The notes beneath the pieces were generated by a model. The model did not search any database and was not told where the DNA came from. It was given only the letters and a program-made list of their open reading frames with translations. From Oscillospiraceae bacterium (GTDB lineage Bacteria > Bacillota > Clostridia > Oscillospirales > Oscillospiraceae), in assembly GCA_029065305.1 (NCBI GenBank), contig JAIEIQ010000260.1, positions 1 through 13,972 on the forward strand: a stretch of DNA of 13,972 nucleotides, written 5' to 3'. The position numbers and the translations under genes were made by a program. This document shows, piece after piece, positions 1 through 13,704 of this stretch (position 1 is the first letter of the stretch; every line of letters starts with the position of its first letter).

Positions 1-1965
1 CTTTTCCCCGCCGTCTGGCTGGCGGGAGCGGCTCTGTTGCTGCTGTGGCGGCTGCTGGGCACCCTCCTCTTCTGCCGCAGGGCCCGCCGCTGGAGCCGCC
101 AGCCCGGGGAGCAGACCCGGCAATTCTACCGGAGCGCCTGCGATGATCTCCACATCCAACGTCCCCCGGTCCTGCTCATCAGCGCCCCGGTGGGCTCCCC
201 CATGATGACGGGGCTTCTGCGCCCCAGGCTCTACCTCCCCTCGGAGGACTGGGGCCCCCAGGAGCTGGCCTTTATCCTCCGCCACGAGCTGACCCACTAC
301 CGGCGGCACGACCTCTGGTATAAGCTGCTCATTCTTGCCGCCAACGCCGTCCACTGGTTCAACCCTCTCATCCACCTTCTCTCCCGGGAGGCGGACACCG
401 ACCTGGAGCTGACCTGCGACGACGCGGTGGTAGCCGGGCGCGGCCGGGAGGACCGCCAGGCCTACAGCGAGACCCTTCTGGGAAGCCTCCACCGCCAGCG
501 GGGGTTGAGCCGCGCGGTCCTTTCCACTCATTTTTACGGAGGTGCAAAAATCATGAAAGAACGCTTTCGGAATATCCTGACCCAGAACAAGCGGAAATTC
601 GGCGTTACCGCCCTGCTTCTGGCCCTGTTTCTGACGGGCTGCGCCGCCGCCGCCCTGGGCATCCGGCAGCAGGCCGGTACCGAGCCGGCGCCGGATGCGG
701 AACAGGAGCCGGAACAGGACGATGCCGCCTACTGGAAGCCCGCCGCCCTGACGGCGGAGGAGATGGCGGACTGGGAGGAGCGGCTGAACTCCACAGAGCT
801 CAACGGCTTTGTCTCCCGTATGTACAGCGATATCCGCTATCTGCCTCTGGGAGAACTTTTCTACAATCATATGGGGGACCCGCTCACCGGCAGTGAGCGC
901 GCCGCCTACCGGGAGGCCTGGGGGGATGACCCGCCGGGGCTGGACATCAGCGCTGTCACCCGGCGGGAGGCCGAGGATTTTCTCGCCGGGCATACCGGTC
1001 TGACCCTCTCGGACTTCCCCGGCGGTCTGGACGCCCAGTGGAACTACAGCCAGGAGGGGGACCGCTGGTACTTCTTCCACGGCGACACCAACTTCACCCC
1101 TGTCACCGTCACCGGCGGCGTCCGGCAGGCGGACTCCCTCACCCTGTATCTGGAGGCCCGGGACGGCCAGTTCTCCAGCGGCCTGGCCTCGGGGGAGCTG
1201 ACCCTCATCGACGGGAAGTTCTTCAGCTTCACCACTCCCCTCTATACCCAGGTGGAAGCCCTGGCCCGGGGGAAGATGAACAGCGCTTTCGCCTGGCTGG
1301 CGGAGGACTACGACATCACCTTCACGGACCGCTGTCTCACCAGCCTCTGGTGCTTCGCCTCCGAGACCATCGGGGAGGAGAGCTACAGCGCCTGGGCCAT
1401 GACCTATCTCCTAAAGCCCGAGGACATCTCCAAGGTCCCTCTGGCGGGAGCGATGGAGACCTTCAATGGCTGGCTGACCCAGAGCGACGGCCCTGGGGAC
1501 CCGATAGCCATTGTCAGCGTCAAGGACGGACAAGTCCAGCTCTGTGAGTGGACTGACACCAGCGTCAGCTGGGAGATGGGCTACACTTGGGAGGAGTGGA
1601 TCGTTGCCCACACCTGCCTGGGTATGGTCCTGTCCCCCAAGCTCAACGGCTGGCCGGAGGTGACCATGGAGTTCATTGCCTCCATTGCCGCCGGGAAGGA
1701 GGAGTGGTGTACCGGCTGGGAGACCACAGCGGAGCGCTGTCTCCGGCAGAAGGGCCGTACGCCGGAGGACGGCGGTCTGACCATCGAAAAGACCTTCCAG
1801 TCCGGCTATGACGGAGACCAGAGTCTCCTTATCCGCGCTGTCTGCGCAGAGGGCGGGTACCTCCTGCTTCTCAACCGGCAGGAATATTTCTATGGTGCGG
1901 ACGGACAGTCCTCCGCCGTCTTCTGGCAGGTCCTGGGGGAGGTCCCCGCCGGGGAGCCGGCCTGA
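1..1965 (+). CDS. M56 (BlaR1/MecR1-like) membrane metallopeptidase with large non-penicillin-binding C-terminal domain, 5' partial
   Basis: The reading frame is open from base 1, so the true start lies upstream; the first codons encode a hydrophobic helix. Numbering visible codons from base 1, a zinc-protease motif HELTH is at codons 95-99 (bases 283-297), followed by the family pattern NAVHWFNPL and an E..CDDAVV segment, which identifies peptidase family M56. These proteins are polytopic membrane proteases that respond to an extracellular signal and usually inactivate a BlaI/MecI-type repressor; no such gene is visible here, but it could lie upstream. A further hydrophobic segment ending LTGC (codons about 200-214) leads into roughly 430 residues of predicted extracytoplasmic domain rich in Trp and Tyr. 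I see no penicillin-binding SxxK/SxN/KTG set there, so a beta-lactam sensor is unlikely and the ligand is unknown. The family call is firm; the signal and target are not known. Confidence 0.88.
   Translation, partial: LFPAVWLAGAALLLLWRLLGTLLFCRRARRWSRQPGEQTRQFYRSACDDLHIQRPPVLLISAPVGSPMMTGLLRPRLYLPSEDWGPQELAFILRHELTHYRRHDLWYKLLILAANAVHWFNPLIHLLSREADTDLELTCDDAVVAGRGREDRQAYSETLLGSLHRQRGLSRAVLSTHFYGGAKIMKERFRNILTQNKRKFGVTALLLALFLTGCAAAALGIRQQAGTEPAPDAEQEPEQDDAAYWKPAALTAEEMADWEERLNSTELNGFVSRMYSDIRYLPLGELFYNHMGDPLTGSERAAYREAWGDDPPGLDISAVTRREAEDFLAGHTGLTLSDFPGGLDAQWNYSQEGDRWYFFHGDTNFTPVTVTGGVRQADSLTLYLEARDGQFSSGLASGELTLIDGKFFSFTTPLYTQVEALARGKMNSAFAWLAEDYDITFTDRCLTSLWCFASETIGEESYSAWAMTYLLKPEDISKVPLAGAMETFNGWLTQSDGPGDPIAIVSVKDGQVQLCEWTDTSVSWEMGYTWEEWIVAHTCLGMVLSPKLNGWPEVTMEFIASIAAGKEEWCTGWETTAERCLRQKGRTPEDGGLTIEKTFQSGYDGDQSLLIRAVCAEGGYLLLLNRQEYFYGADGQSSAVFWQVLGEVPAGEPA
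538..555 (+). promoter_or_regulatory. Possible internal ribosome binding site and in-frame ATG within the M56 gene
   Basis: GGAGGT (538-543) lies 9 bases before an in-frame ATG (553-555). Initiation there would give a 470-residue protein beginning with a basic stretch, a hydrophobic run and LTGC with Cys at residue 30, which reads like a lipoprotein signal peptide. The local codons (GGA GGT GCA AAA) are less GC-rich than those around them. Use of this start is an inference. Confidence 0.4.
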
Positions 1966-1974
1966 GCGTGAAGG

Positions 1975-2002
1975 AGCCCCGGAGCCATTTGGCTCCGGGG
2001 CT
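1975..2002. terminator. Hairpin between convergent genes, probable shared terminator
   Basis: A perfect 12-bp stem, AGCCCCGGAGCC paired with GGCTCCGGGGCT around an ATTT loop, starts 9 bases after the M56 stop codon and lies 24 bases beyond the end of the minus-strand SLH gene. Neither side carries a clear run of T, so intrinsic termination may be imperfect. Its position between two convergent gene ends supports a role for both strands. Confidence 0.65.
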
Positions 2003-2026
2003 CTGCTGTCAACAGCGGAAGATCTG

Positions 2027-3382
2027 TCAGCCCACTCTGCGGGCGAGGGCCTCCAGCCGCATCAGGATGGTCGCCGCCTCCGCCCGGGTGGCGGTGCCTC
2101 CGGGGGACATGGTTCCGTTGGCCATGCCGGAGATCAAGCCCTCGCCAACCGCCCAGGCGATGGGCTGGACGGCGTAGGGGGAGATCCGGCCCGCGTCGGG
2201 AAACCGCGCCAGAGAGACGCCGGCACCGGTATCCCAGCCCTTATAGCGGGCAAAGCGGTACAGAATCGCCGCCAGCTGCTCCCGGGTGATGTTGTCCTCG
2301 GGACCGAAGGTTCCGTCCTCATAGCCGGTGACAATCCCGTTGGCTGCGGCCCAGGCGATGGGCTGGGCGTAGTAGAAGTCCGCCCGTACATCCGGGAAGG
2401 CGGAGGCGGGGGCCTCCGGAGAGCCCTCCAGGCGGTGGAAGATGGTGACGATCATCCCCCGGGTGGTGGGCTCGTCGGGGCCGAAGCGGTCCGCAGTGAT
2501 GCCGTTCATCAGACCCTGCTCATAGACATATGCCACAGCGCTCCGGTACCAGTCGCTCTCCCGCACGTCGGCAAAGGGCAGGTTGCCGGGGACATCGGGC
2601 GCGGGCGGCGGCGACTCCTCTGTCCGGACAAAGCTCACCTCCACCTCCACGTCGGAGGCGGGCATCCGAAAGGTATACGTCCCCTCAGACCGCTCCCGGA
2701 GCTCCACCGGCCGGTCCTTCCGGTCAAAGACCTCCAGGCTCCCCAGCTCCCAGCCGCCGTCCGCCGAGACGGTGAGGGTGACGCGCTCCCCCTCCTCCGC
2801 CCGAGAGGCGTCGGCGCGGACGGTGCCTCCCTCTGTCCGGGGGATGTTGATCCGGTAGCGCTCCCCGTCCTCCTCCTCGTCCGGGGCGTCCTCGCCCCAG
2901 CCGGTGACGCCGGACCGCTCCCGCAGGTCTGTCTGCCCGCTCAGGTCCTCGATCCGGTTCAGCCCCCGGCCCAGCAGGGTCAGGTCCGCGCTGGCGGGGA
3001 GCACATCCTCTCCGCTCCCCCGGCCCCCCAGATCCAGGGTCCCCAGAAAAAGGCGCTCCTGGCTGCCCAGGGGGCTGTTCCGGGAGGTGAGGCAGACGGT
3101 CAGGCGGGTGCTGTCCCCGCCGTCCACCGCCTGGCAGACGCTGTACAGATCCCGGCTGGCGGGGACGAAGTCCGCCTCCGGCCAGCTGCCGTCCAGGGTC
3201 AGCTCCAGCTGGGCGGCGTACACGCCGCTGCCGTCCAGGTCCTCCAGAGCCAGGAAAATCTCCCCCCGGCCGTCCCCCTCCTCCCAGGCCAGGGAGGGGG
3301 AGGACGCGGCCCGGGCGGAAAATGTCCCCAGACTGCCGGCCAGCGCCAGAGCTGTCAAAAGAGTGGGCAGACGCCGGTTCAT
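2027..3382 (-). CDS. Secreted S-layer-homology (SLH) protein with cohesin-like N-terminal region; likely surface anchor for the upstream M60 peptidase
   Basis: This 451-residue protein starts with a signal peptide (residues 1 to about 25, ending ARA). Residues about 28-160 have the beta-rich spacing of a cohesin (GVYAAQLELTLD, then an RLFLGTLDLGG strand); this is pattern matching by eye and only moderately certain. Residues about 175-250 resemble an InlB-B-like repeat (GGTV...GERVTLTV...YTFRMPASDVEV). Three SLH domains follow at about 268-320, 327-382 and 391-447, each with an F.DV/F.DA start, an A-rich helix and a TR(E/G/A) segment. SLH domains bind secondary cell-wall polymers, so the protein should sit on the cell surface. 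Its ATG overlaps the upstream stop codon (ATGA, 3382-3379), so the two genes are translationally coupled. The architecture resembles OlpA-type cellulosome anchors, suggesting it could hold the dockerin-bearing peptidase. The SLH assignment is firm; the cohesin call needs structural confirmation. Confidence 0.9.
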   Translation of the reverse strand: MNRRLPTLLTALALAGSLGTFSARAASSPSLAWEEGDGRGEIFLALEDLDGSGVYAAQLELTLDGSWPEADFVPASRDLYSVCQAVDGGDSTRLTVCLTSRNSPLGSQERLFLGTLDLGGRGSGEDVLPASADLTLLGRGLNRIEDLSGQTDLRERSGVTGWGEDAPDEEEDGERYRINIPRTEGGTVRADASRAEEGERVTLTVSADGGWELGSLEVFDRKDRPVELRERSEGTYTFRMPASDVEVEVSFVRTEESPPPAPDVPGNLPFADVRESDWYRSAVAYVYEQGLMNGITADRFGPDEPTTRGMIVTIFHRLEGSPEAPASAFPDVRADFYYAQPIAWAAANGIVTGYEDGTFGPEDNITREQLAAILYRFARYKGWDTGAGVSLARFPDAGRISPYAVQPIAWAVGEGLISGMANGTMSPGGTATRAEAATILMRLEALARRVG

Positions 3383-6300
3383 TCCTGCCCTCCTGTCTGG
3401 AGTACCACCTGGGGCAGGGACTCCTTGTCGCCGGGGCAGTTGATCCAGGCGGTCTGGGCCGTAACCCGCTGGCTTTCAGCAGAATCGTGCTTGTCCGTGC
3501 GCTTGAGCTCCGCCTGGATGCGGCCCGGCAGCAGCTGCAGGCCCTCGCAGGGGTCCTTGGCCTGGAGCGCGGCCTCATTTTCCAGGTTGGGGACGAAGAT
3601 GAAGAAGCCGTCGCTGATGTCGCTGACCGGGCCGGTCTCCGGCACGGTGGCCAGCAGCAGGGCATAGCCGTCAAGGGGCCTCACGACCGGCTCCGGCACG
3701 CTGTCCGCCTCGTCATTCACAGGCGCGGTGATAAACTCGCCCTTGATGTTGATGGTGTTGTAGACCGGGTCGCCCCGATAGGTACCCAGGATCACCAGTG
3801 TGCCGGCCTCGATGGTTTCCGTCCCCTCCTGTGTCTGATAGGTGTAGTCCGCCGAGAGTGCGCCCATTGTCGCGCCCTCCAGGAAGGAGATGTCGTCCCC
3901 GGCGAAGCTGATGAGCTTGATCTCTGCGTCCTTCGGTACGCCGGTGAGGGTGATTTTCTCCGGCTCGTAGGTCCAGATGCGGGTGTCGTTCTCCGCTGTG
4001 TCGGGCTTGCGGAAATAGCCGACAAAGCCGACCGCGCGTTCCTCCAGGGGAGCGGAGAGGATATTTTCGTAGCGCTTTTCCCCAATCTCAATCGTTGCCT
4101 GGAGATCTCCGCCTGCACTTGTTTTTATGCCGGTGACGTCAGTGCCCTTTTCTACTGTAATGGTCACAGTGCCGTCAGCTTCTCTGCTCACCTTGTAGTC
4201 TTTTTCGTCCACCAGCATGTCGTAGGCCACTCGGACCTCCCCGGCCTTGACGGTTTCTCCAATTTTGTTCCCCAAGGTGTCGTAGGCTGTCACCTCATAG
4301 GTATAGACCCGGTGGTTGCCGGAGCCGATGGTGTCCTTGTATTCGGCAGTACCCTTCTGAATGAAGGCAATGGGCTTGCCGTTCCGGAGAATTTCATAGC
4401 CCTGGACGTAGTCTTCGTTTTCGAGAGGTGTGATAGTAACCGTGACCTCCTTGCCGCCGTTCTCATTGGCGGCTGCTGCGGAGAACTCGCCTGTGGGGGC
4501 GGTGACATTGGCCAGCCGGTCACGGCGGCTCTGGTCGTTCAAGTACCAGATAGCCCGGGTTTCCTTCTCTGCGGGCATTTTTGCCTTTGCCTCGTCGCTG
4601 AGGACCATGCCCCAGCGGGTGAAGAACTCGCTCAGGTCCTTCCCCGCCACGCCGGAGGCGGTGAGAGCTACCCTCTCGTCATAGGTGTTGCTGTCGGTGA
4701 AATAGGTCTTTTGACTCCACGCCTTGGAGAAGTCGTTGAAGAATTTCGGAAGCTTCTCCCCGCCGTCATAGGCCAGATGGAGCTGCCAGTACATGCCCAG
4801 CTGAACAAACACGTCCCCGGAGGCCCCGGGCATCCCCTGGGCGGTCTTGTCGAAGATGGCGGCGTACTTGCCGCTCTTCTCCAGCCGGGAGGGCAGGGTG
4901 TTGGACTTGCCGTCGTAGGTCTGGACCATCAGGGAGTAGATATTGTTGGTGATCTCCGCCTTGCCCAGCAGGTCCAGGTTGTGGCCGATCTCGTGGGCGA
5001 TGCCCCAGCCGAAGAGACCATTGTAGTCCCCCGTGACAGCCTCCTTCACCGGCCTGCCGGTGACCATGCCGCCGCAGGAGCTGTAGCCGATGCCAATGTG
5101 GCTGCCGGCGGCGTACATGAAGGCCCCGGAGAACATGGTCATATACCGGATGTTCTGCCGCGCCTCCACGCCCACCTTCTCATAGACGGCGTCAATGCCG
5201 TGGGTGGTACGGCAGATGGCCATGACCTGCTCCCACGCCTCGATGCTGTTATAGAGGGTCTGGATCTTCTCCTCCCGGCTGGAGCTGCCCATTGCGGACT
5301 GCACGGTCAGGGCCGGGATGGAGAGGAGCACAGACGGGGTGGCAATCTCCGTGACGTTGAGATAGTTGGTGGTGGGGTTGGGGATGGAGCGGGTCAGATA
5401 GGCGTCCAGCTCATCCACATAGCGTCCGATAACCTCTTTCCGTCCGGCCTCGTCCAGAGTGTACCAATTCCCCAAATCCAGTACCGGAATGGAGACGGCC
5501 TGTCCGGCCCGGTGGACGTGGAGCTTGATCTGATCCGCGCCCGTGCCGCCGTAGGTGGCATACAGACTGCCGCCCTTGGTGAACTCCGCCCGATCCGTCA
5601 GCTGGGGGATGGTCAGCAGGTTTCTGCCGTTGTGGAGCGTGCCGATCTTGCTCTGCCAGGAGGACGCCTCCGCGCCGTACTGGGTGGCGTAGACATCCAC
5701 GGATCCGTTCTCGGGAATCCCGGCGGCGTAGATGACGATGGTCTGTCCGGCCCTGACGGTGACGCCCAGGGGCTGGAAGCTGCTCCCCCGGCCGCCGGAG
5801 CGGGACTCGATGCCCTCCAGCACCGCGCCGCTGGACTTGCCGCCGCTCAGCAGCTCCCGGGCCAGGGCCAGCTCATCGGCCATGATATCGGTGTGGAAGT
5901 AGTAGAGGCGCTCGCCGCTGTCAAGCCGGTCCTCCAGGGCCTTGATCCGCGCCTCGTCCACGCCCTCCGCCAGCTGGGTGTGGAGGCCGTCCTTCCCTCC
6001 GGCGAAGAGGCCGGCGATGTCGTCGGTGAGGTTCTTGCTGGGGTCGTACTGGACGAACATCAGCTCCGAGAGGCTGACGTTGTGTCCGTCGTAGCCCACC
6101 TGCTCCGCCGCCACGCTGATCTTCTTCACGCCCTTCACCGGATCAAAGGGCATGATGGCGAAGCGGTCCGTGGGGATGGTGCTCTGGTTGGGGATGGTGG
6201 GCCAGGTGTGGACATCGGCGCCGGTACCGCCGTTGTCCACGCCGCCCAGGGCCGGGTCGGGGACCAGCAGCTCCTCCGTCCCGTCTGCATACCACACCCG

Positions 6301-8268
6301 GACGCTGTAGGCCCGCAGATAGCTGGGGAAGCTGCCGTCCAGCCGGGGAACCCAGATGACGGCGCTCAGATCCACCGGCTCCTTGAAGGTGGCGATGACG
6401 TGCTCATTTCCGCTCCAGTTGTTGCTGGCGGTCCAGTGGGTTCGGTAGTCGCCGTCGATGACGTTGTTGATATTGAAGCCCTCGGGGTAGGCGGAGGCCA
6501 GGTAGTTCTTCGGGTCCGCCAGCTCCACCTTCTCAATGAGGCTCCGGTCCAGAAGGGCCTCGGTGGGCAGACCCTCCGGCGGGTCGTAGTTGGTGGCCTT
6601 GGGGGTGCCCTCCACCGCAGCGGAGGGACTGCCCAGACCCTGGTCGTTGCCGGCGGTGACACGCAGGGCGTAGGTCACGTCGTTGGTCAGGCCGGTGACG
6701 ACGGTGCTGGTCTGGGCCAGCTGGCCCTCCCAGGACTGCCACTGCTCCCCGGCGGCGGGACGGTACTCCACGATGTAGTAGTTGGCCCCCTTGGCCTCCT
6801 TCCAGGACAGGCCCAGAGCGCCGTCCAGCACGGAGACCCGCACCATATCCACCCGATCCGGCGGTCCGGAGGGCTGGGGGGTGGCGGTGACGGCGGCGGA
6901 GGGCTTACCCTCCCAGCTGCCGTCGGTGGGGGTGACGGTAAAGGCGTAGGTCGTGCCGTTGTCCAGGCCCGTCACCTCCGCCCGGGTCACGTCCACCCGG
7001 AGCTCCTCTACCTCCTGGGGCTCCTCCTCCGGCCAAAAGAGAATCTTATAGCCGGAGACGTTGGGCAGGGCGTCCCAGCGCAGCTGAACCAGCTCGCTCC
7101 CCGCCTCCGCCGTCAGGCTCTCCTGCTTGATGGCGCTGTTTTTGGGCGCGGGGTTCTCGGGCACGATGTCCTGTAGGAACTGAATGGCCTCCAGCGCGGC
7201 GTACTCGCCGCCCTGGGTCTTGGAGACGGTGATGGCGATCCGCTTCACCGGCACCCGCGTCCCCAGGTTCACCAGGATCACGCCGCTGCCAGGGGTGCGG
7301 CCCGTGGCCTGGGTGTCCTCCGGCGGGGTGGTATCAAAGGGGACCCGGTGCTCCTTCCCGCTCTCGTCCACCGCCAGGACCACGCCCTTCTGCACCTCCC
7401 CCGCGCCGCTGGGGGAGACGATCTGGACCTGCTGGAGGTCCACGGTCCGATCCAGGTCCATCTCCAGCTGGATGTTCTCCCCGGCGAGCCGGACGGTCTC
7501 GCCGTTGTCCAGGAAGAGGTTCTCCAGATCCCCGGTGACAGCCGTGCCCGCCGCCGCCAGCTTGGCGGCGAGGCCGTCCACGTCCACCGGCGGATCCAGC
7601 AGGGCGGTCTTCAGGCACTCCGCCTCCCCCTGGGCCTCCAGCTGCCGGTCCACATAGGCCAGATCCACGATGTCAATGGTGCCGTCGCCGTCCAGGTCGA
7701 AGCGCTCCAGATCGGCGTCCTTCTCGCTGCCCAGGGCGGCGGCAAGCGCCTCCCGGTCGGCCTTGTCCACCTGTCCGCTGCCGTCCACGTCGCCCAGGGT
7801 GAAGGTGGCGTCGCCGGTGCCCAGGATGGCGTACCGGGCGCAGTCCTCCAGGGCCAGATCGACGGTGCAGGTCACATAGCCCCGGCCCGTGAAGCGCAGG
7901 CTGTAGCTCCCCCGGGGCAGGTCCTTCACGGTCAGATCCAGGTATCCGGGCCACTGCCCGCCACCCAGATCCCCGCCCTCCGGGTTGCGCAGGGAGACCT
8001 CGGCGGCATAGCCGCCCGCGTCAAGGCCGCTGTCCGCCTCCCACAGAGGGAGGACGCCCAGGCTCCTGCCATCCCGCAGCAGCTCCGCCTGGACCTGCCG
8101 GTCCCGAAGGGCGTCCAGCCGCTGGGCGTAGTCCACCCGCAGGGTGGCAGAGATGCTGCCGGTGACGCCGTCCGCCTCCTCCGCCCGGGCGAGAGAGGCC
8201 CAGGAGAGGGAGGACAACAGCAGCGCCGCCGTCAGCAGGAGTGAAAGAACTCTCGTTCGTATCCGCAT
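3379..8268 (-). CDS. Secreted M60-family (enhancin/mucinase-type) metallopeptidase with dockerin, F5/8C-like and FN3 domains
   Basis: The 1629-residue protein has a signal peptide (1-29, ending ARA). A type I dockerin (about 150-215) shows two calcium-loop repeats: D160, D162, S164, D168 and D191, D193, D195, D199. A galactose-binding-like region lies at about 220-370, two FN3 domains at about 385-560 and an F5/8 type C (discoidin/CBM32-like) domain at about 580-740. The M60 region (about 825-1250) carries HEIGH at 1092-1096 followed by E1105, matching the family HExxH-x8-E zinc site. An FN3-like domain (about 1265-1345) and an unrecognised C-terminal region complete it. M60 enzymes typically cleave glycoproteins such as mucins, with companion domains binding glycans, so a secreted glycoprotein-degrading role is likely; the exact substrate is unknown. 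An in-frame ATG at 8331 lies at the -35 element and encodes no signal sequence, so 8268, preceded by AAGGAAG at 8 bases, is preferred. No wall anchor is present, which points to the SLH partner downstream. Confidence 0.92.
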   Translation of the reverse strand: MRIRTRVLSLLLTAALLLSSLSWASLARAEEADGVTGSISATLRVDYAQRLDALRDRQVQAELLRDGRSLGVLPLWEADSGLDAGGYAAEVSLRNPEGGDLGGGQWPGYLDLTVKDLPRGSYSLRFTGRGYVTCTVDLALEDCARYAILGTGDATFTLGDVDGSGQVDKADREALAAALGSEKDADLERFDLDGDGTIDIVDLAYVDRQLEAQGEAECLKTALLDPPVDVDGLAAKLAAAGTAVTGDLENLFLDNGETVRLAGENIQLEMDLDRTVDLQQVQIVSPSGAGEVQKGVVLAVDESGKEHRVPFDTTPPEDTQATGRTPGSGVILVNLGTRVPVKRIAITVSKTQGGEYAALEAIQFLQDIVPENPAPKNSAIKQESLTAEAGSELVQLRWDALPNVSGYKILFWPEEEPQEVEELRVDVTRAEVTGLDNGTTYAFTVTPTDGSWEGKPSAAVTATPQPSGPPDRVDMVRVSVLDGALGLSWKEAKGANYYIVEYRPAAGEQWQSWEGQLAQTSTVVTGLTNDVTYALRVTAGNDQGLGSPSAAVEGTPKATNYDPPEGLPTEALLDRSLIEKVELADPKNYLASAYPEGFNINNVIDGDYRTHWTASNNWSGNEHVIATFKEPVDLSAVIWVPRLDGSFPSYLRAYSVRVWYADGTEELLVPDPALGGVDNGGTGADVHTWPTIPNQSTIPTDRFAIMPFDPVKGVKKISVAAEQVGYDGHNVSLSELMFVQYDPSKNLTDDIAGLFAGGKDGLHTQLAEGVDEARIKALEDRLDSGERLYYFHTDIMADELALARELLSGGKSSGAVLEGIESRSGGRGSSFQPLGVTVRAGQTIVIYAAGIPENGSVDVYATQYGAEASSWQSKIGTLHNGRNLLTIPQLTDRAEFTKGGSLYATYGGTGADQIKLHVHRAGQAVSIPVLDLGNWYTLDEAGRKEVIGRYVDELDAYLTRSIPNPTTNYLNVTEIATPSVLLSIPALTVQSAMGSSSREEKIQTLYNSIEAWEQVMAICRTTHGIDAVYEKVGVEARQNIRYMTMFSGAFMYAAGSHIGIGYSSCGGMVTGRPVKEAVTGDYNGLFGWGIAHEIGHNLDLLGKAEITNNIYSLMVQTYDGKSNTLPSRLEKSGKYAAIFDKTAQGMPGASGDVFVQLGMYWQLHLAYDGGEKLPKFFNDFSKAWSQKTYFTDSNTYDERVALTASGVAGKDLSEFFTRWGMVLSDEAKAKMPAEKETRAIWYLNDQSRRDRLANVTAPTGEFSAAAANENGGKEVTVTITPLENEDYVQGYEILRNGKPIAFIQKGTAEYKDTIGSGNHRVYTYEVTAYDTLGNKIGETVKAGEVRVAYDMLVDEKDYKVSREADGTVTITVEKGTDVTGIKTSAGGDLQATIEIGEKRYENILSAPLEERAVGFVGYFRKPDTAENDTRIWTYEPEKITLTGVPKDAEIKLISFAGDDISFLEGATMGALSADYTYQTQEGTETIEAGTLVILGTYRGDPVYNTINIKGEFITAPVNDEADSVPEPVVRPLDGYALLLATVPETGPVSDISDGFFIFVPNLENEAALQAKDPCEGLQLLPGRIQAELKRTDKHDSAESQRVTAQTAWINCPGDKESLPQVVLQTGGQE
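3389..3394 (-). promoter_or_regulatory. Ribosome binding site of the SLH gene, inside the end of the M60 gene
   Basis: AGGAGG on the minus strand, 6 bases before the ATG at 3382, lies within the last codons of the upstream gene. With the ATGA overlap it supports this start and coupled translation, plausibly keeping enzyme and anchor in proportion. Confidence 0.8.
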
Positions 8269-8301: not shown

Positions 8302-8331
8302 ATTATACCAAACGCCCCCCTGTTTTGACAA
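8302..8331 (-). promoter_or_regulatory. Promoter of the M60-SLH operon
   Basis: On the minus strand, TTGTCA (8331-8326), an 18-base spacer and a consensus TATAAT (8307-8302) with an upstream TGG (extended -10) form a good housekeeping-sigma promoter. Transcription would begin near 8295, about 27 bases before the chosen start codon at 8268, which supports that start. Confidence 0.75.
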
Positions 8332-9539: not shown

Positions 9540-10031
9540 TTACTGCGCGGCGGGGACCAGCTCTCTGGCCTGCTTTCCGGTTACGTGCTCGATGGTCAAT
9601 GCCAGCACGCACAGCCGGGAAAAATCTTTTTCGATATACTCCGTCCGGTGCTCCGGGGTGTCGGCGGGGGCGTACTTCCGGGCCAGCAGCTCCACAGAGC
9701 GGCGCTTCTCCGCCGGGGCCTCGACAATCCGCATCCGGCCAAAGGCGATGACGCTGCGGTAGTGGGTGGTGTACCGCTCCGGGACCACCTGATCCTGGTC
9801 GATAACGCAGAAGGAGGCCTTCTCATTACGGGCGACGGCGTCCAGCTTGTGGCCGGACTGGGCGCAGTGGAAATAGAGGGTGTCCCCCTCCCGGACGTAG
9901 CTGATGGGGACGGCATAGGGGTAGCCATCGTCCCCGGACAGGGCCAGGACCCCGGCGGTGCCCCGGTCCAGGATGGACAGGCAGTCGGACTCCGGCAGGA
10001 CTTGCTTTTTCCGGCGCATTTCTCGGAACAT
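9540..10031 (-). CDS. NimA-like pyridoxamine 5'-phosphate oxidase-family flavin-binding protein
   Basis: At 163 residues this has the usual length of the NimA/PNPOx-like split-barrel family. Family landmarks are the N-terminal MRRKKQ segment, GVLAL..DDGYPYAVPISY (about 27-45), YFHCAQSGHKLDAV (Y53-F54-H55, G60-H61-K62) and SVIAFGRM (about 93-100). Members bind FMN or a related cofactor in the cytoplasm. Some Nim proteins reduce 5-nitroimidazole drugs to harmless amines, but most homologues in Clostridia have no proven resistance role, so a drug-resistance label is not justified by sequence alone. The start is supported by AAAGGAGG (minus strand, 10047-10040) 8 bases upstream of the ATG. It is last in the four-gene operon, 43 bases after the Mrp gene with no terminator between; a private promoter is not visible. 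Confidence 0.85.
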   Translation of the reverse strand: MFREMRRKKQVLPESDCLSILDRGTAGVLALSGDDGYPYAVPISYVREGDTLYFHCAQSGHKLDAVARNEKASFCVIDQDQVVPERYTTHYRSVIAFGRMRIVEAPAEKRRSVELLARKYAPADTPEHRTEYIEKDFSRLCVLALTIEHVTGKQARELVPAAQ

Positions 10032-10074
10032 AGGCGAAGCCTCCTTTACAGATGGTATTGATGGAGTGGATTGA

Positions 10075-10908
10075 TTACTGCTTGCTGTCGAACTTCTCCA
10101 GGATGTCCGCCAGATTTTCCAGCCAATCGCCCTGGAAGTCCTCGATGCGGCCTGCGTCGGTGAGGGAGGCCAGCTCCGGGTTCAGGGGCATCCGGGCCAG
10201 GAGCTTCAGGTTGTGGGCGTCGGCGGCGGCCTGGGTCCGGCCCGGGCCGAAGAGGGAGATCTCCTTGCCGCAGTCGGGGCAGAGGAGATAGCTCATGTTC
10301 TCCACAATGCCCACGATGGGCACGTTCATCATCTCCGCCATCTTCACGGCCTTCTCCACCACCATGCTCACCAGCTCCTGGGGGGAGGCCACGATGATCA
10401 GTCCGTCCAGGGGCAGGGACTGGAACACGCTCAGGGCCACGTCGCCGGTGCCCGGGGGCATGTCTACGAAGAGGTAGTCCACGTCCCAGATCACGTCGGT
10501 CCAGAACTGGGTTACCACTCCGCCGATGACCGGGCCCCGCCAGAGGACCGGGTCCGTCTCGTTGTCCAGCAGCAGGTTCACGCTCATGAGCTGGATGCCC
10601 GTGGAGGTGGGGACGGGGAGCATCCCCCGCTCGTCGGCCATGGCCCGCTGGCGGACGCCGAAGCACTTGGGAATGGAGGGGCCGGTGACGTCGGCGTCCA
10701 GGACGCCCACCTGATAGCCCTTCCGACTCATGAGCACCGCCAGCTGGCTGGTGACCATGCTCTTGCCGACGCCGCCCTTGCCGGATACGACGCCGAAGAC
10801 CTTGCCCACACGGGCGGCGGGGTTGTGCTCCTTCAAAAAGGACTGGGGCTCGGTGCGCTCCCCGCAGCTCTCGCCGCAGGTGGAGCAGTCGTGGGTGCAT
10901 TCAGACAT
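10075..10908 (-). CDS. Mrp/Nbp35-type Fe-S cluster carrier ATPase (ApbC family)
   Basis: This 277-residue P-loop ATPase is a cytoplasmic scaffold or carrier that delivers iron-sulfur clusters to apoproteins. The deviant Walker A motif GKGGVGKS is at residues 43-50, D-A-D-V-T-G-P-S (about 72-79) is the family signature, and VDMPPGTGD lies near 148-156. The CPDC pair at C210 and C213 matches the conserved CxxC that binds the bridging cluster between two subunits. The N-terminus has four cysteines (C4, C8, C11, C15), an Nbp35-like extension absent from many shorter Mrp proteins, which probably binds a second cluster. Its ATG is 3 bases after the stop of the CmpB-like gene, and its AAGGAG site overlaps that gene's last codons, so translation is probably coupled. 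The family call is secure; client proteins are unknown. Confidence 0.95.
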   Translation of the reverse strand: MSECTHDCSTCGESCGERTEPQSFLKEHNPAARVGKVFGVVSGKGGVGKSMVTSQLAVLMSRKGYQVGVLDADVTGPSIPKCFGVRQRAMADERGMLPVPTSTGIQLMSVNLLLDNETDPVLWRGPVIGGVVTQFWTDVIWDVDYLFVDMPPGTGDVALSVFQSLPLDGLIIVASPQELVSMVVEKAVKMAEMMNVPIVGIVENMSYLLCPDCGKEISLFGPGRTQAAADAHNLKLLARMPLNPELASLTDAGRIEDFQGDWLENLADILEKFDSKQ

Positions 10909-10911
10909 TGC

Positions 10912-11754
10912 TTACATCTCCTTGTTTTCTTTGATGAATTGCTTCCGGTTTTCCAGATATTCACGCAGCTTGGACAGAGCCTCGCTGTGGCGGGCGGATT
11001 TCAGGGTGGGGAAGGATTGCAGCAGGCGGCGGTCGAAGAAGTCCTGACGCTCGTAGAGGGCGTGGAGCTTCCGCTGGGCCTCCGCCCGGACCTCCTCCAG
11101 CCGCTGGCGCTGGGCTTCGGTGAACTGGCGCTGTCCGGCCCGGAGCTGCTCCAGCCGCTGGGCCAGCTCGTCGTGGACGGCGTGGAGCTTGGCCAGGTGG
11201 CTGCCCACGCGGAGGGCGCTGCGGACGGAGACGGCGATATCCGCCAGGTAGAGGACGCCCAGCACCAGGGCCAGAGGGACCCCCAGGCCGGCGGCGAAGA
11301 GGGCGCCCAGCCGCCGGGCGATAGGCGGGTTGGCGAAGTGGCAGAGGAACACACTGGCCAGACCGAAGAGGGTGGAATTGAGCAGGCAGACCCGGCCTCG
11401 GAGGTGGAAACGGTAGTGGGAGTAGTCCCACCAGCGCATGTGGAAGAGCTTCTCCATGCCATAGGAGGTGATATACTCCACGGCGGAGGTGAGCACCGCC
11501 CCCAGCAGGAAGGTCAGCAGGGGATTTTCACACCCGCCGTCCAGAGCCAGCAGGACCACCAGGGCTCCGTGGCCGTAGATGGGGCAGAGGAGGCCGTTGA
11601 GAAAGCCCCGCTTCTCACATAGCTTTCTCTGGCCGATGGAGCAGTATACCATCTCCCCGCACCAGCCCAGGAAGCTGTAGGCCAGCAGGAGGAGAAAGGT
11701 GAAGCAGCCCCGCTGGAGGGGCGAGACACAGGCGTCGGGAAAAAAGAACGGCAT
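10912..11754 (-). CDS. CmpB-like 'putative ABC transporter permease' membrane protein with C-terminal coiled coil
   Basis: The 280-residue protein shows the motifs of the CmpB-type family: GWCGE (G30-W31...E34), RGFLNG (49-54), CPIYGHGA (57-64), EYITSYGMEKLFHMRWWDYS (about 93-112) and GRVCL (about 119-123). About five hydrophobic segments lie near residues 17-37, 55-72, 78-98, 122-142 and 148-172. The family is named as an ABC transporter component, but its function is not well established and no ABC partner of the transport type is present. Residues about 185-280 are highly charged, rich in Gln, Arg, Glu and Leu, and predicted coiled coil, presumably cytoplasmic. The start is 9 bases after the YhaN-like stop, with GAGG 7 bases upstream of the ATG. 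Cotranscription with the coiled-coil ATPase makes a membrane-associated joint role conceivable, but this is speculative. Confidence 0.82.
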   Translation of the reverse strand: MPFFFPDACVSPLQRGCFTFLLLLAYSFLGWCGEMVYCSIGQRKLCEKRGFLNGLLCPIYGHGALVVLLALDGGCENPLLTFLLGAVLTSAVEYITSYGMEKLFHMRWWDYSHYRFHLRGRVCLLNSTLFGLASVFLCHFANPPIARRLGALFAAGLGVPLALVLGVLYLADIAVSVRSALRVGSHLAKLHAVHDELAQRLEQLRAGQRQFTEAQRQRLEEVRAEAQRKLHALYERQDFFDRRLLQSFPTLKSARHSEALSKLREYLENRKQFIKENKEM

Positions 11755-11763
11755 AGCAGGACC

Positions 11764-13662
11764 TCACAGACTGACAATGTGGCAGGCGTTGGGGTGGAGG
11801 CGGCGCAGGCAGGATGCCTCCCGGCTCTGGCAGGTGAAGAGCAGGATCTGCCGCTGGGCGGAGAGCTCCAGCAGATAGTCCAGGGCCGCGGCCATGCGCC
11901 CGTCGTCGAAGCTGACCAGGGCGTCGTCCAGGATGATGGGGGCGGCGTTTTCCGCCGGCAGCACCAGCTGGCACACCGCGAGGCGCACCGCCAGATAGAG
12001 CTGGTCCGACGCACCCTGGCTGAGGAGCGCGGCCTCGTGGGGGGCCAGACGGTCCGTCTCCTGGGCGGAGGGGGTCATCTCCCGATCCAGCAGAACTCTA
12101 TTATACTTCCCCTGGGTGAGCTTTGTAAATATCTCCGCCGATTTTTCTCCCAGAGCCGGAGAAAACCGGTTTTGCAGGTCCGTGTCCGCCTGGGAGAGGA
12201 CCTCCATGGCCAGGGCGATGGCGTCGTACTCCGCCTGGAGCCCCTCCCGGCGGGAGAGAAGCGCCGCCTCCTGCTCCCGCAGGGCGATGGGGTCGCCGCG
12301 GCCCTGGATCTGGCCGGCGGTCCGGTGGATGGCGGCCTTGAGGGATTCCTCCCGGCCGAGAAGAGCCCGCAGGCTGTTTTGCAGCTGGTCCCTGGTCAGC
12401 GTGGGGCGTTTGACGGGCTGGGCTGACGCGCCGGAGAGAGCGGCGGCGGGCTGGGCGGAGCGGAGGCTGGCCTCATAGCCGGCCTCGGCGGCGGAGAGGG
12501 CGTCCAGGTCGGACTGGTGGGCGGCGCGGGCGGCATCCAGCGCGCTCAGAAGGGCCTGGTATGCCGTTTCCTCCGCCTGGCGGCGGTCCTGACCGGCCTG
12601 CCAGCGGCTTTTTTGGCGGGCGTGAAGCAGCAGGATACCCATTATAATGAGAAAAGAGATCGCCAGCGCGCCGGCAGCGGCGGCGGGAGAAAATGAAAAG
12701 AAGAAAGCGGCGGCGAAGGCCAGGGGGATTGCCAGAAGGGGCCAGAGAAGGAGCCGGGGCGGCGTTTCAGCGGCGGACTCCGGCGGGGAGTGGGCGGCAG
12801 CGGCCCCCTCCGCCTCCTGGAGAGCCTGGGCGGAGCGGTCCGCGCGGCGGCGGGCCTCCTCCACCAGCTGGGCCAGACGGCGGCTGGCGGCTTGGGCCTC
12901 CTGCCGGGCCTCCGCCTGCCGGGAGAGGGCGTCGGCCTGGTCCGCGGCCTCGTGGCGGGAGAGAAGGGCGTGGACGTTTTGGATCTGGGACTGGATGGCG
13001 GTCAGGTCCTTTTCACAGCCCTGGAGCTGAGCGTCCAGAGTTTGGAGCTCCCCCAGCGTGGTTTGGACGAGGGTGAGCTCCCGCTCCAGCTGGGGCAGCA
13101 GGCCCGTCTGATTGTGTCGGCGGCGGTTGAGCTGCCGCCGCAGGCGGTCGGAGACGGCGGAGCAGGACACGTCCTCCTCGCCGGTGGTGATGAGGGCGTT
13201 GATGCGCTGCTCCAGGGCCGCGTGGGGGCCGATGGCCAGACCGCCCTGGCGGATGAGGGCGCTGCGGACGTAGACCTCCTGGGGGACGCCCAGCAGGAGC
13301 TCGCCGCAGTCCGAGGCGGTGAGGCCCTCCACGGGGGAGGCGGTGCCGGTATAGACGGCGGAAAAGGCGGACATGGGGGAGTTGGCCCGGGCGGTGCGCC
13401 GGGTGAGGGTCAGGTCCCGGCCGCCGGCCTGAAGGTCCATACTGCCCTCCATGAAAGCGCCGCTCCAGGGCTGGTAGCGGCGTTTATCGGCGTTGGGGCT
13501 GCGGTCCCGGGTGTTCAGACCGTAAAACATAATCTGAAGAAAGGCGGTCCAGGTGGATTTTCCGCCCTCGTTGGGGGATTCTATCACGTTCAGCCCAGGC
13601 CGGAGGGACAGCTCCGCACGCTCCAGACGGCCGAAGGAGGCGGCCAGCTTCTTGATGTACAT
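11764..13662 (-). CDS. YhaN-like AAA/SMC-type ATPase with coiled coils and internal membrane hairpin
   Basis: This 632-residue protein has the split ATPase layout of the SMC/Rad50/YhaN group. Its N-terminal Walker A is SPNEGGKST (29-37), with Ser in place of the first P-loop Gly. Coiled coil runs at about 190-290, two hydrophobic segments at about 305-325 and 328-350, and a second coiled coil follows. The C-terminal ABC signature is LLSQGASDQ (about 545-553) and Walker B is IILDDALVSFDD (D579-D580), with Asp at the usual Glu position. B. subtilis YhaN acts with the SbcD-like YhaO; related proteins are linked to DNA-end metabolism, but the function here is inferred. No CxxC zinc hook is seen. 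An in-frame start at 13704 would coincide with the predicted promoter; the ATG at 13662 with GGAGG 6 bases upstream is chosen, and the protein then begins MYIKKL as in homologues. First gene of a four-gene operon; no sbcD-like gene is next to it. Confidence 0.88.
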   Translation of the reverse strand: MYIKKLAASFGRLERAELSLRPGLNVIESPNEGGKSTWTAFLQIMFYGLNTRDRSPNADKRRYQPWSGAFMEGSMDLQAGGRDLTLTRRTARANSPMSAFSAVYTGTASPVEGLTASDCGELLLGVPQEVYVRSALIRQGGLAIGPHAALEQRINALITTGEEDVSCSAVSDRLRRQLNRRRHNQTGLLPQLERELTLVQTTLGELQTLDAQLQGCEKDLTAIQSQIQNVHALLSRHEAADQADALSRQAEARQEAQAASRRLAQLVEEARRRADRSAQALQEAEGAAAAHSPPESAAETPPRLLLWPLLAIPLAFAAAFFFSFSPAAAAGALAISFLIIMGILLLHARQKSRWQAGQDRRQAEETAYQALLSALDAARAAHQSDLDALSAAEAGYEASLRSAQPAAALSGASAQPVKRPTLTRDQLQNSLRALLGREESLKAAIHRTAGQIQGRGDPIALREQEAALLSRREGLQAEYDAIALAMEVLSQADTDLQNRFSPALGEKSAEIFTKLTQGKYNRVLLDREMTPSAQETDRLAPHEAALLSQGASDQLYLAVRLAVCQLVLPAENAAPIILDDALVSFDDGRMAAALDYLLELSAQRQILLFTCQSREASCLRRLHPNACHIVSL

Positions 13663-13668
13663 GGGATA

Positions 13669-13673
13669 CCTCC
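13669..13673 (-). promoter_or_regulatory. Ribosome binding site deciding the YhaN-like start
   Basis: GGAGG on the minus strand sits 6 bases before the ATG at 13662. The in-frame ATG 42 bases further upstream has no comparable site, so the shorter protein is favoured. Confidence 0.75.
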
Positions 13674-13704
13674 ACAATATATATAATGAAAAGCTTCTGG
13701 ACAT

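Follow-up and report, generated by a model that had tools for sequence, protein, structure and literature searches.

A dockerin-bearing M60 metallopeptidase and its putative private cell-surface dock, encoded by adjoining genes in Oscillospiraceae and relatives

This study concerns two adjoining genes in a 13,972-nucleotide (nt) stretch of DNA from an Oscillospiraceae bacterium (GenBank assembly GCA_029065305.1), hereafter the window, which is the whole of contig C180 of a metagenome assembly that is 70% complete. One gene encodes an M60 metallopeptidase that carries a dockerin, and the other an anchor protein in which a cohesin-like domain precedes S-layer homology (SLH) repeats. Sequence comparison and fold prediction together make it very likely that the pair produces a secreted metalloprotease of the glycoprotein type together with a private dock on the cell surface, joined via the dockerin and the cohesin-like domain. 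This is supported by the gene structure, the dockerin, the predicted fold, a strict and exclusive linkage of the two genes, and the exchange of anchors among relatives. In the proposed mechanism, signal peptides would export both proteins, and the dockerin of the protease, with an X-like module in front of it, would bind the cohesin-like domain at the N-terminus of the anchor, presumably with calcium. The SLH repeats would hold the anchor protein on the cell wall, a membrane helix taking their place in some relatives, and the protease would be displayed on the producer cell rather than lost to the medium.

Both genes lie on the minus strand, as do all their features given below, and were defined by open reading frame (ORF) translation and Pfam: the M60 gene (3379..8268) encodes 1629 amino acids (aa), and the anchor gene (2027..3382) 451 aa. 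They meet at a translational coupling site (3379..3394), where stop and start codons overlap as ATGA (3382-3379) and an AGGAGG (3394-3389) ends 6 nt upstream of the anchor-gene start codon. The coordinates, strands, ATGA overlap and AGGAGG given in an initial annotation of the window were exact. The best explanation is that the M60 gene and the anchor gene form a bicistronic unit. The initial annotation also had enzyme and anchor made in a fixed ratio; tight coupling of the genes is evident, and the two proteins may be produced at a stoichiometry of 1:1.

The M60 protein begins with a signal peptide at about residues 1-29 (8182..8268; read by eye from the translation), followed by the X-like module at about residues 35-150 (7819..8166; profile comparison) and a type I dockerin with two calcium-loop repeats at residues 158-210 (7639..7797). 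Dockerin_1 (PF00404) membership is clear at 28.5 bits against a curated cut-off of 22.9, in agreement with the two-repeat dockerin initially placed at residues 150-215. Further along, Pfam matched fn3 in two stretches, the best-scoring at residues 479-554 (6607..6834), and gave a borderline F5/8 type C (CBM32-like) module at residues 595-664 (6277..6486) with 28.0 bits, slightly below the cut-off of 28.2. The Peptidase_M60 domain (PF13402; residues 1008-1220, 4609..5247) belongs to its family with 71.4 bits against a cut-off of 25.8, and the HEIGH...E zinc motif, i.e., HEXXH with a downstream glutamate, is seen in the translation (HEIGHNLDLLGKAE). A C-terminal region (residues 1340-1629; 3382-4251) is common to relatives and has no Pfam name. 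As had been claimed, the protein appears to lack an anchor of its own: Pfam and NCBIfam list no SLH or other anchor domain in it, and no C-terminal membrane helix was seen when the translation was read by eye.

The dockerin of the M60 protein is the sole one found in the assembly. In alignment A3 (the window and 76 loci; L181 was excluded for its short length, and the corresponding part of the gene is missing from L132, L158, and L184), every one of the 77 members matched Dockerin_1 at E<=0.1, and both calcium loops are visible in the alignment of relatives. Repeat 2 (D-I-I/V-D-L-A/S-Y) is more conserved than repeat 1, which suggests that the dockerin uses one binding mode. The beta-rich module N-terminal to it weakly matches CarboxypepD_reg in 37 and PEGA in 32 of the 77 sequences, and the arrangement is X-dockerin-like: a dockerin profile covers the dockerin and part of the preceding module in the PDB X-dockerin chains 5k39_B and 4u3s_B. 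The top PDB match of this profile is 2jnk, a hyaluronoglucosaminidase dockerin that is presumably of Clostridium perfringens origin, and many calmodulins are matched as well, as expected of EF-hands. The catalytic region aligns to 5kdj, 5kdn, and 7jfs (F5/8 type C domain proteins), and also to ZmpC/ZmpA (6xsz, 6xsx) and BcM60F (9pks). Because it aligns to solved M60 glycopeptidases, the substrate is, judging from the family, probably an O-glycosylated protein such as mucin.

In the anchor protein, a signal peptide is visible in the translation, followed by the cohesin-like domain at residues 27-160 (2903..3304; nine predicted beta strands), a Flg_new_2 module (divergent InlB B-repeat; residues 176-253, 2624..2857; Pfam) that is missing in part of the family, and three SLH repeats located by profile search (2072..2578, namely 2456-2578, 2270-2398, and 2072-2206), with 125 bits in Pfam. 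Although 43 SLH repeats are spread over many proteins of the assembly, the cohesin-like domain was found in the anchor protein alone; its single copy there adjoins the single dockerin found, which is more than chance would give. The signal peptide and SLH repeats of the initial annotation thus stood, and its cohesin-like region stood by predicted fold and failed by Pfam. The first 175 residues have no Pfam name; PF00963 (cohesin) gave no match in the anchor protein at E<=1, nor in its own genome, 70% complete, at E<=10, and is not among the 25 of 54 Pfam families listed for 78 family members. When the sequence profile of the domain was run against the PDB, nothing was returned at E<=10, and hhalign against true cohesins gave a weak match (22.7% probability, columns 17-94 vs 16-94), eight control profiles staying below 7%. 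A protein search with membrane-anchored partners retrieved 16 relatives among 8000 candidates scored, none of them labelled cohesin.

The predicted fold of the domain resembles cohesins best, forming a nine-stranded beta sandwich that superposes on solved cohesins across the whole domain, and on this basis it belongs to the cohesin fold, as had been anticipated for the N-terminal region. Cohesins occupy ranks 1-9 of the structural matches with 118-121 aligned residues, as compared with 103 for the best CBM2, and the best matches are 2jh2, 2vo8, and 2w1n. Among the matches given in the VIA list, 41 of 50 rows read as cohesins, CBM2-type, GH20 or chitinase modules making up the other nine; families absent from this list are not thereby excluded. 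The cohesin-like family escapes standard models: the domain is not a cohesin by the Pfam definition, but its predicted fold and its context suggest that it probably functions as a cohesin. The anchor protein may have an OlpA/SdbA-type build, in which SLH is recognised by Pfam, the signal peptide is visible, and the cohesin is recognised by fold only. At residue 97 (A2 position 72) in strand 6, the anchor protein of the window has Cys; 76 of 78 relatives have Tyr, the window and L112 being the only ones that differ.

A genome collection was scanned with the M60 protein, and 80 of 133 confirmed loci were kept. In 77 of 77 assessable loci, the M60 gene is immediately followed, on its own strand, by the cohesin-like gene; in the remaining three (L113, L115, L166) the contig ends there. 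With gene starts chosen by rule and the window included, the intergenic gap ranges from -8 to 125 nt (median 10.5), and 29 of 78 pairs overlap. SLH repeats fall within the same ORF as the cohesin-like domain in 74 loci; in L149 the contig ends before SLH, in L179 SLH lies in the following ORF, and L177 has none. According to record titles, the hosts are Oscillospiraceae, Butyricicoccus, Acutalibacter, Neglectibacter, Negativibacillus, and Anaerotignum. Cultured relatives that carry the pair include Flintibacter muris DSM 110149 and Flavonifractor sp. An92. The X-dockerin region was matched at E<=0.01 in 53 of 250 family genomes, of which 29 are clear orthologues (E<=3e-18), and the partner is directly downstream in 28 of the 28 that are assessable, the 29th (G180) stopping at a contig edge. 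The pairing is thus conserved, and together with the cohesin-like fold this lends support to the cellulosome-like display initially proposed, in which the dockerin would bind the cohesin-like domain. Five of the 24 weaker X-dockerin matches were examined (G077, G152, G207, G216, G036), and G077, G152, and G207 proved to be M60-dockerin chains with their own SLH.

A separate search for the cohesin-like domain gave 30 strong matches (E<=9e-18), all 30 beside an M60 gene; a dockerin is visible in 28 of these, the M60 gene being cut by the contig in G050 and truncated in G118. On this exclusive placement, chance resemblance of the domain was rejected. Of three weak matches, G216 is a diverged membrane-anchored partner directly downstream of a dockerin-M60 gene, and G119 (an Ig/SLH protein) and G028 (a transglutaminase-like protein) look unrelated by eye. 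Weak matches in G159 and G088 contain stop codons and overlie frames that by eye resemble RelA/SpoT and tRNA deacylase. Exactly one cohesin-like domain was found in 29 of the 30 genomes searched, the window, G180, and G050 included, and none in G180. Pfam reports exactly one dockerin in 22 of the 30 genomes (in G143, outside the M60 gene), two each in G116, G246, and G214, three in G200, six in G147, and seven in G070; at E<=0.001 it finds none in G050 and G071, the M60 dockerin of G071 being matched by the X-dockerin search.

The means of anchoring differs among relatives. In L177, L206, L208, L209, and L242, a cohesin-like domain follows the dockerin-M60 gene and ends, in place of SLH, in a membrane helix (read by eye) and a basic tail. 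These domains scored E-values of 2e-11 in L177 (model of 29 family sequences), 7e-11 in L206, 1e-11 in L208 and 7e-7 in L209 (filters off, seven-sequence set), and 3e-6 in L242. L208 and L209 were unmatched in the default search, were seen by eye at the expected place and then scored; profiles retrained with both are circular and were not used. At the order level, an M60 relative is present in 25 of 394 genomes, and 20 loci from 19 of these were examined, the other six genomes being already covered. Thirteen of the 20 hold the full pair (the L202 partner is split over two reading frames) and three the membrane form. Of the others, L207 (genus g77) encodes a single chain with dockerin and SLH, L210 has a split dockerin and a neighbour that gives a weak match, L211 has an M60 relative with neither dockerin nor partner, and in L200 (G118) the M60 gene is damaged and has lost what corresponds to residues 1-1011.

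The L200 partner gene, also damaged, changes frame and lacks an aligned signal peptide, and both members look decayed. In L247 (G036), the X-dockerin occurs in a 354-aa frame without the M60 catalytic domain, and no cohesin-like partner was found within the 8 kb examined. Three loci of genus g77 (L207, L245, L246) have M60 and dockerin in a single chain that carries SLH repeats of its own at the C-terminus. The stretch before these repeats resembles the cohesin-like domain weakly (E 8e-4, 0.006, and 0.09 for three homologues); in a shuffle test, P0038 was matched or beaten by 4 of 3000 shuffles and P0040 by more than six, and a previous run over this stretch gave 1 of 2000 shuffles with an equal or higher score. 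A one-chain fusion of M60, dockerin, cohesin-like domain, and SLH in g77 is thus weakly supported, and it was not counted as evidence.

Coevolution was assessed by distance correlations over 64 loci, a comparison limited by short domains and shared history. Distances of the cohesin-like domain correlate more strongly with those of the M60 catalytic domain (r 0.81) than with those of the SLH repeats in its own chain (0.52), and of 61 splits in its tree, 36 are shared with the catalytic domain, 33 with the X-dockerin, and 25 with its own SLH. This pattern would fit a socket that is tied to the enzyme and an anchor that is exchangeable. A quite improbable alternative is that the anchor holds the protease by a contact other than the dockerin, such as the X-like module, whose residual distances correlate with the cohesin-like domain and SLH at 0.18 each, or the C-terminal region of the M60 protein, which is shared by relatives and unnamed in Pfam. 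However, the predicted fold of the partner domain is that of established dockerin receptors, and in L165, L168, L169, L179, L181, L185, and L191 the M60 match starts near residues 88-110, so that the X-like module is divergent, and the dockerin is retained.

Cohesins recognised by Pfam were sought in 33 genomes, i.e., 30 of the pair set and three of g77. None was found at E<=0.001 in 28 of the 33; the other five hold six places, three of which lie on a contig that also carries another dockerin gene. In G147 (L249), a 788-aa protein with a signal peptide, a cohesin (24.4 bits; cut-off 24.1), Flg_new_2, and three SLH repeats is encoded directly 3' of, and in a frame overlapping, the gene of a giant protein with a dockerin at its end; the 788-aa protein is built like the anchor protein of the window, and its cohesin is recognised by the standard model. 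The gene of a 407-aa cohesin-SLH protein in G214 (L250; 24.4 bits) lies directly 5' of a dockerin-bearing gene, and in G070 (L248) a 602-aa cohesin-SLH protein (19.7 bits, under the cut-off) has a dockerin gene upstream with one gene between. The model of the cohesin-like domain matches none of these three proteins, and their cohesins therefore form a separate branch. It is possible that they represent a second set of private docks beside very large dockerin proteins. Because they show cohesin-SLH genes beside other dockerin genes, they strengthen both the docking of the M60 protease and the broader proposal, held tentatively and at slightly less than even confidence, that gut Oscillospiraceae and relatives use private docks, in which an enzyme is encoded together with an SLH- or membrane-anchored socket of its own and does not draw on a common scaffold, one widespread socket family being a cryptic cohesin missed by standard models.

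Certain results weigh against a mutually binding pair. CBM2 chains come within one Z unit of cohesins, and genus g77 keeps a dockerin in a chain with its own SLH. Both would suit an alternative in which the dockerin is a calcium-stabilised internal spacer and the anchor a co-produced, CBM2-like glycan-binding adhesin, the two proteins meeting on the same substrate with no mutual binding. This is unlikely: cohesins outrank CBM2 in the fold comparison by position and aligned length, no strong match to the domain was found in a genome without the M60 gene (30 of 30 lie beside it), one M60 locus that lacks a dockerin also lacks a partner, one gene that has lost its dockerin has a damaged partner, and Pfam-level cohesin-SLH genes occur near other dockerin genes in relatives. 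Partial correlations corrected for the enzyme signal are likewise weak (0.21 between domain and dockerin, 0.12 between SLH and dockerin). Lastly, the 77 loci share descent and hence are not independent observations, which leaves room for linkage being inherited synteny without a functional tie. That is very improbable, since other neighbours vary, the commonest flanking family occurring in 8 and the next in 5 of 77 loci (reading frames of >=120 aa in flanks of <=6 kb, with more than 1.5 kb available upstream in 70 loci and downstream in 62); moreover, gene order is kept from Oscillospiraceae to Anaerotignum, and anchors are swapped with the domain retained. Synteny alone was rejected on this flank comparison. 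The docking of the protease by its dockerin thus stays the preferred reading, to which the X-like module, the membrane-helix anchors, the model-escaping cohesin-like family, and the further cohesin-SLH genes add observations beyond the initial annotation.

Upstream of the pair, a sigma-70-like promoter (TTGTCA-18-TATAAT; 8302..8331, minus strand; 11 of 12 matches) ends 33 nt before the M60 start codon, a scan of the region having found two such sites vs 0.7 expected. At the other end, a 13-bp inverted repeat (1974..2003) lies between the convergent 3' ends of the anchor gene and an M56 gene; it has no T-run, and the terminator scan made no call there. This M56 gene (1-1965, plus strand) encodes a BlaR1-type peptidase with a long extracellular region that has no Pfam name and in which Pfam did not call the BlaR1 penicillin-sensing domain. 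A four-gene run at 9540-13704 (minus strand) encodes, by Pfam, an SMC-like AAA_27 ATPase, a CmpB-type membrane protein, a NUBPL-type P-loop NTPase, and a pyridoxamine-phosphate-oxidase-like protein.

It is common for dockerins to lack a detectable cohesin, and the pair would supply one such dockerin with a partner that Pfam models miss. A Pfam-based survey of the human gut catalogue reports a dockerin in 26,894 genomes, a cohesin in 6,562, and both in 4,333 (PMC12997984). Inspecting the gene that adjoins a dockerin gene offers a rule for finding more cohesin partners. If the proposal holds, some gut genomes with dockerins but no cohesin would contain private docks rather than broken cellulosomes, and gut Clostridia would keep a protease for glycoproteins attached to their own cells, with consequences for which organisms benefit when mucus is degraded. 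The pair may also offer a compact natural plug-and-socket with exchangeable anchors for surface display.

Compared with known systems, the anchor protein recalls OlpA, OlpC, and SdbA, the anchoring scaffoldins of Clostridium thermocellum that combine a cohesin with SLH. Here, however, the partner gene is adjacent and encodes a protease, and there is one cohesin-like domain per genome in 29 of 30 searched; by analogy, the anchor would work like OlpA or SdbA with a single client. No multi-cohesin scaffoldin carrying the cohesin-like domain was seen among the 30 genomes searched, and in place of the multi-cohesin scaffoldin and several dockerin enzymes of a cellulosome, the 70%-complete assembly yielded a single copy of the domain and a single dockerin. 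Type II X-dockerin modules (CipA, ScaA) also have a module before the dockerin, part of which, in 5k39_B and 4u3s_B, is covered by the dockerin profile, but they stand at the C-terminus of a scaffoldin, whereas the X-like module here is at the N-terminus of an enzyme. The catalytic region aligns with those of M60-like glycopeptidases (ZmpA, ZmpC, BcM60), which also include BT4244 and ZmpB. Of 415 M60 proteins in a 2012 survey, two had a dockerin and one SLH, and the available part of that paper describes no docking partner for them (PMC3267712). No description of an M60-dockerin/cohesin-like-SLH pair was found in the open-licence PMC literature searched.

The single cohesins (X82) and glycosidase dockerins of C. 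perfringens resemble the pair in being non-cellulosomal, and they provide the best fold matches mentioned above. The C. perfringens cohesin is not known to be encoded next to its dockerin partner. It sits on another enzyme and not on a dedicated anchor (PMC12997984). The Limousia mucinolysome resembles the pair in purpose and shares display by cohesin-dockerin on gut Clostridia, and its mucin-active enzymes include peptidases; it differs in having many dockerin enzymes, multi-cohesin scaffoldins, and a sortase anchor (PMC12997984). Its main text mentions neither 'M60' nor 'SLH', and the survey used Pfam cohesin and dockerin models, so that the cohesin-like domain would not have been picked up that way (PMC12997984). 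The pair thus adds a variant to known cohesin-dockerin display, with a probably private partner and a socket that escapes the standard models.
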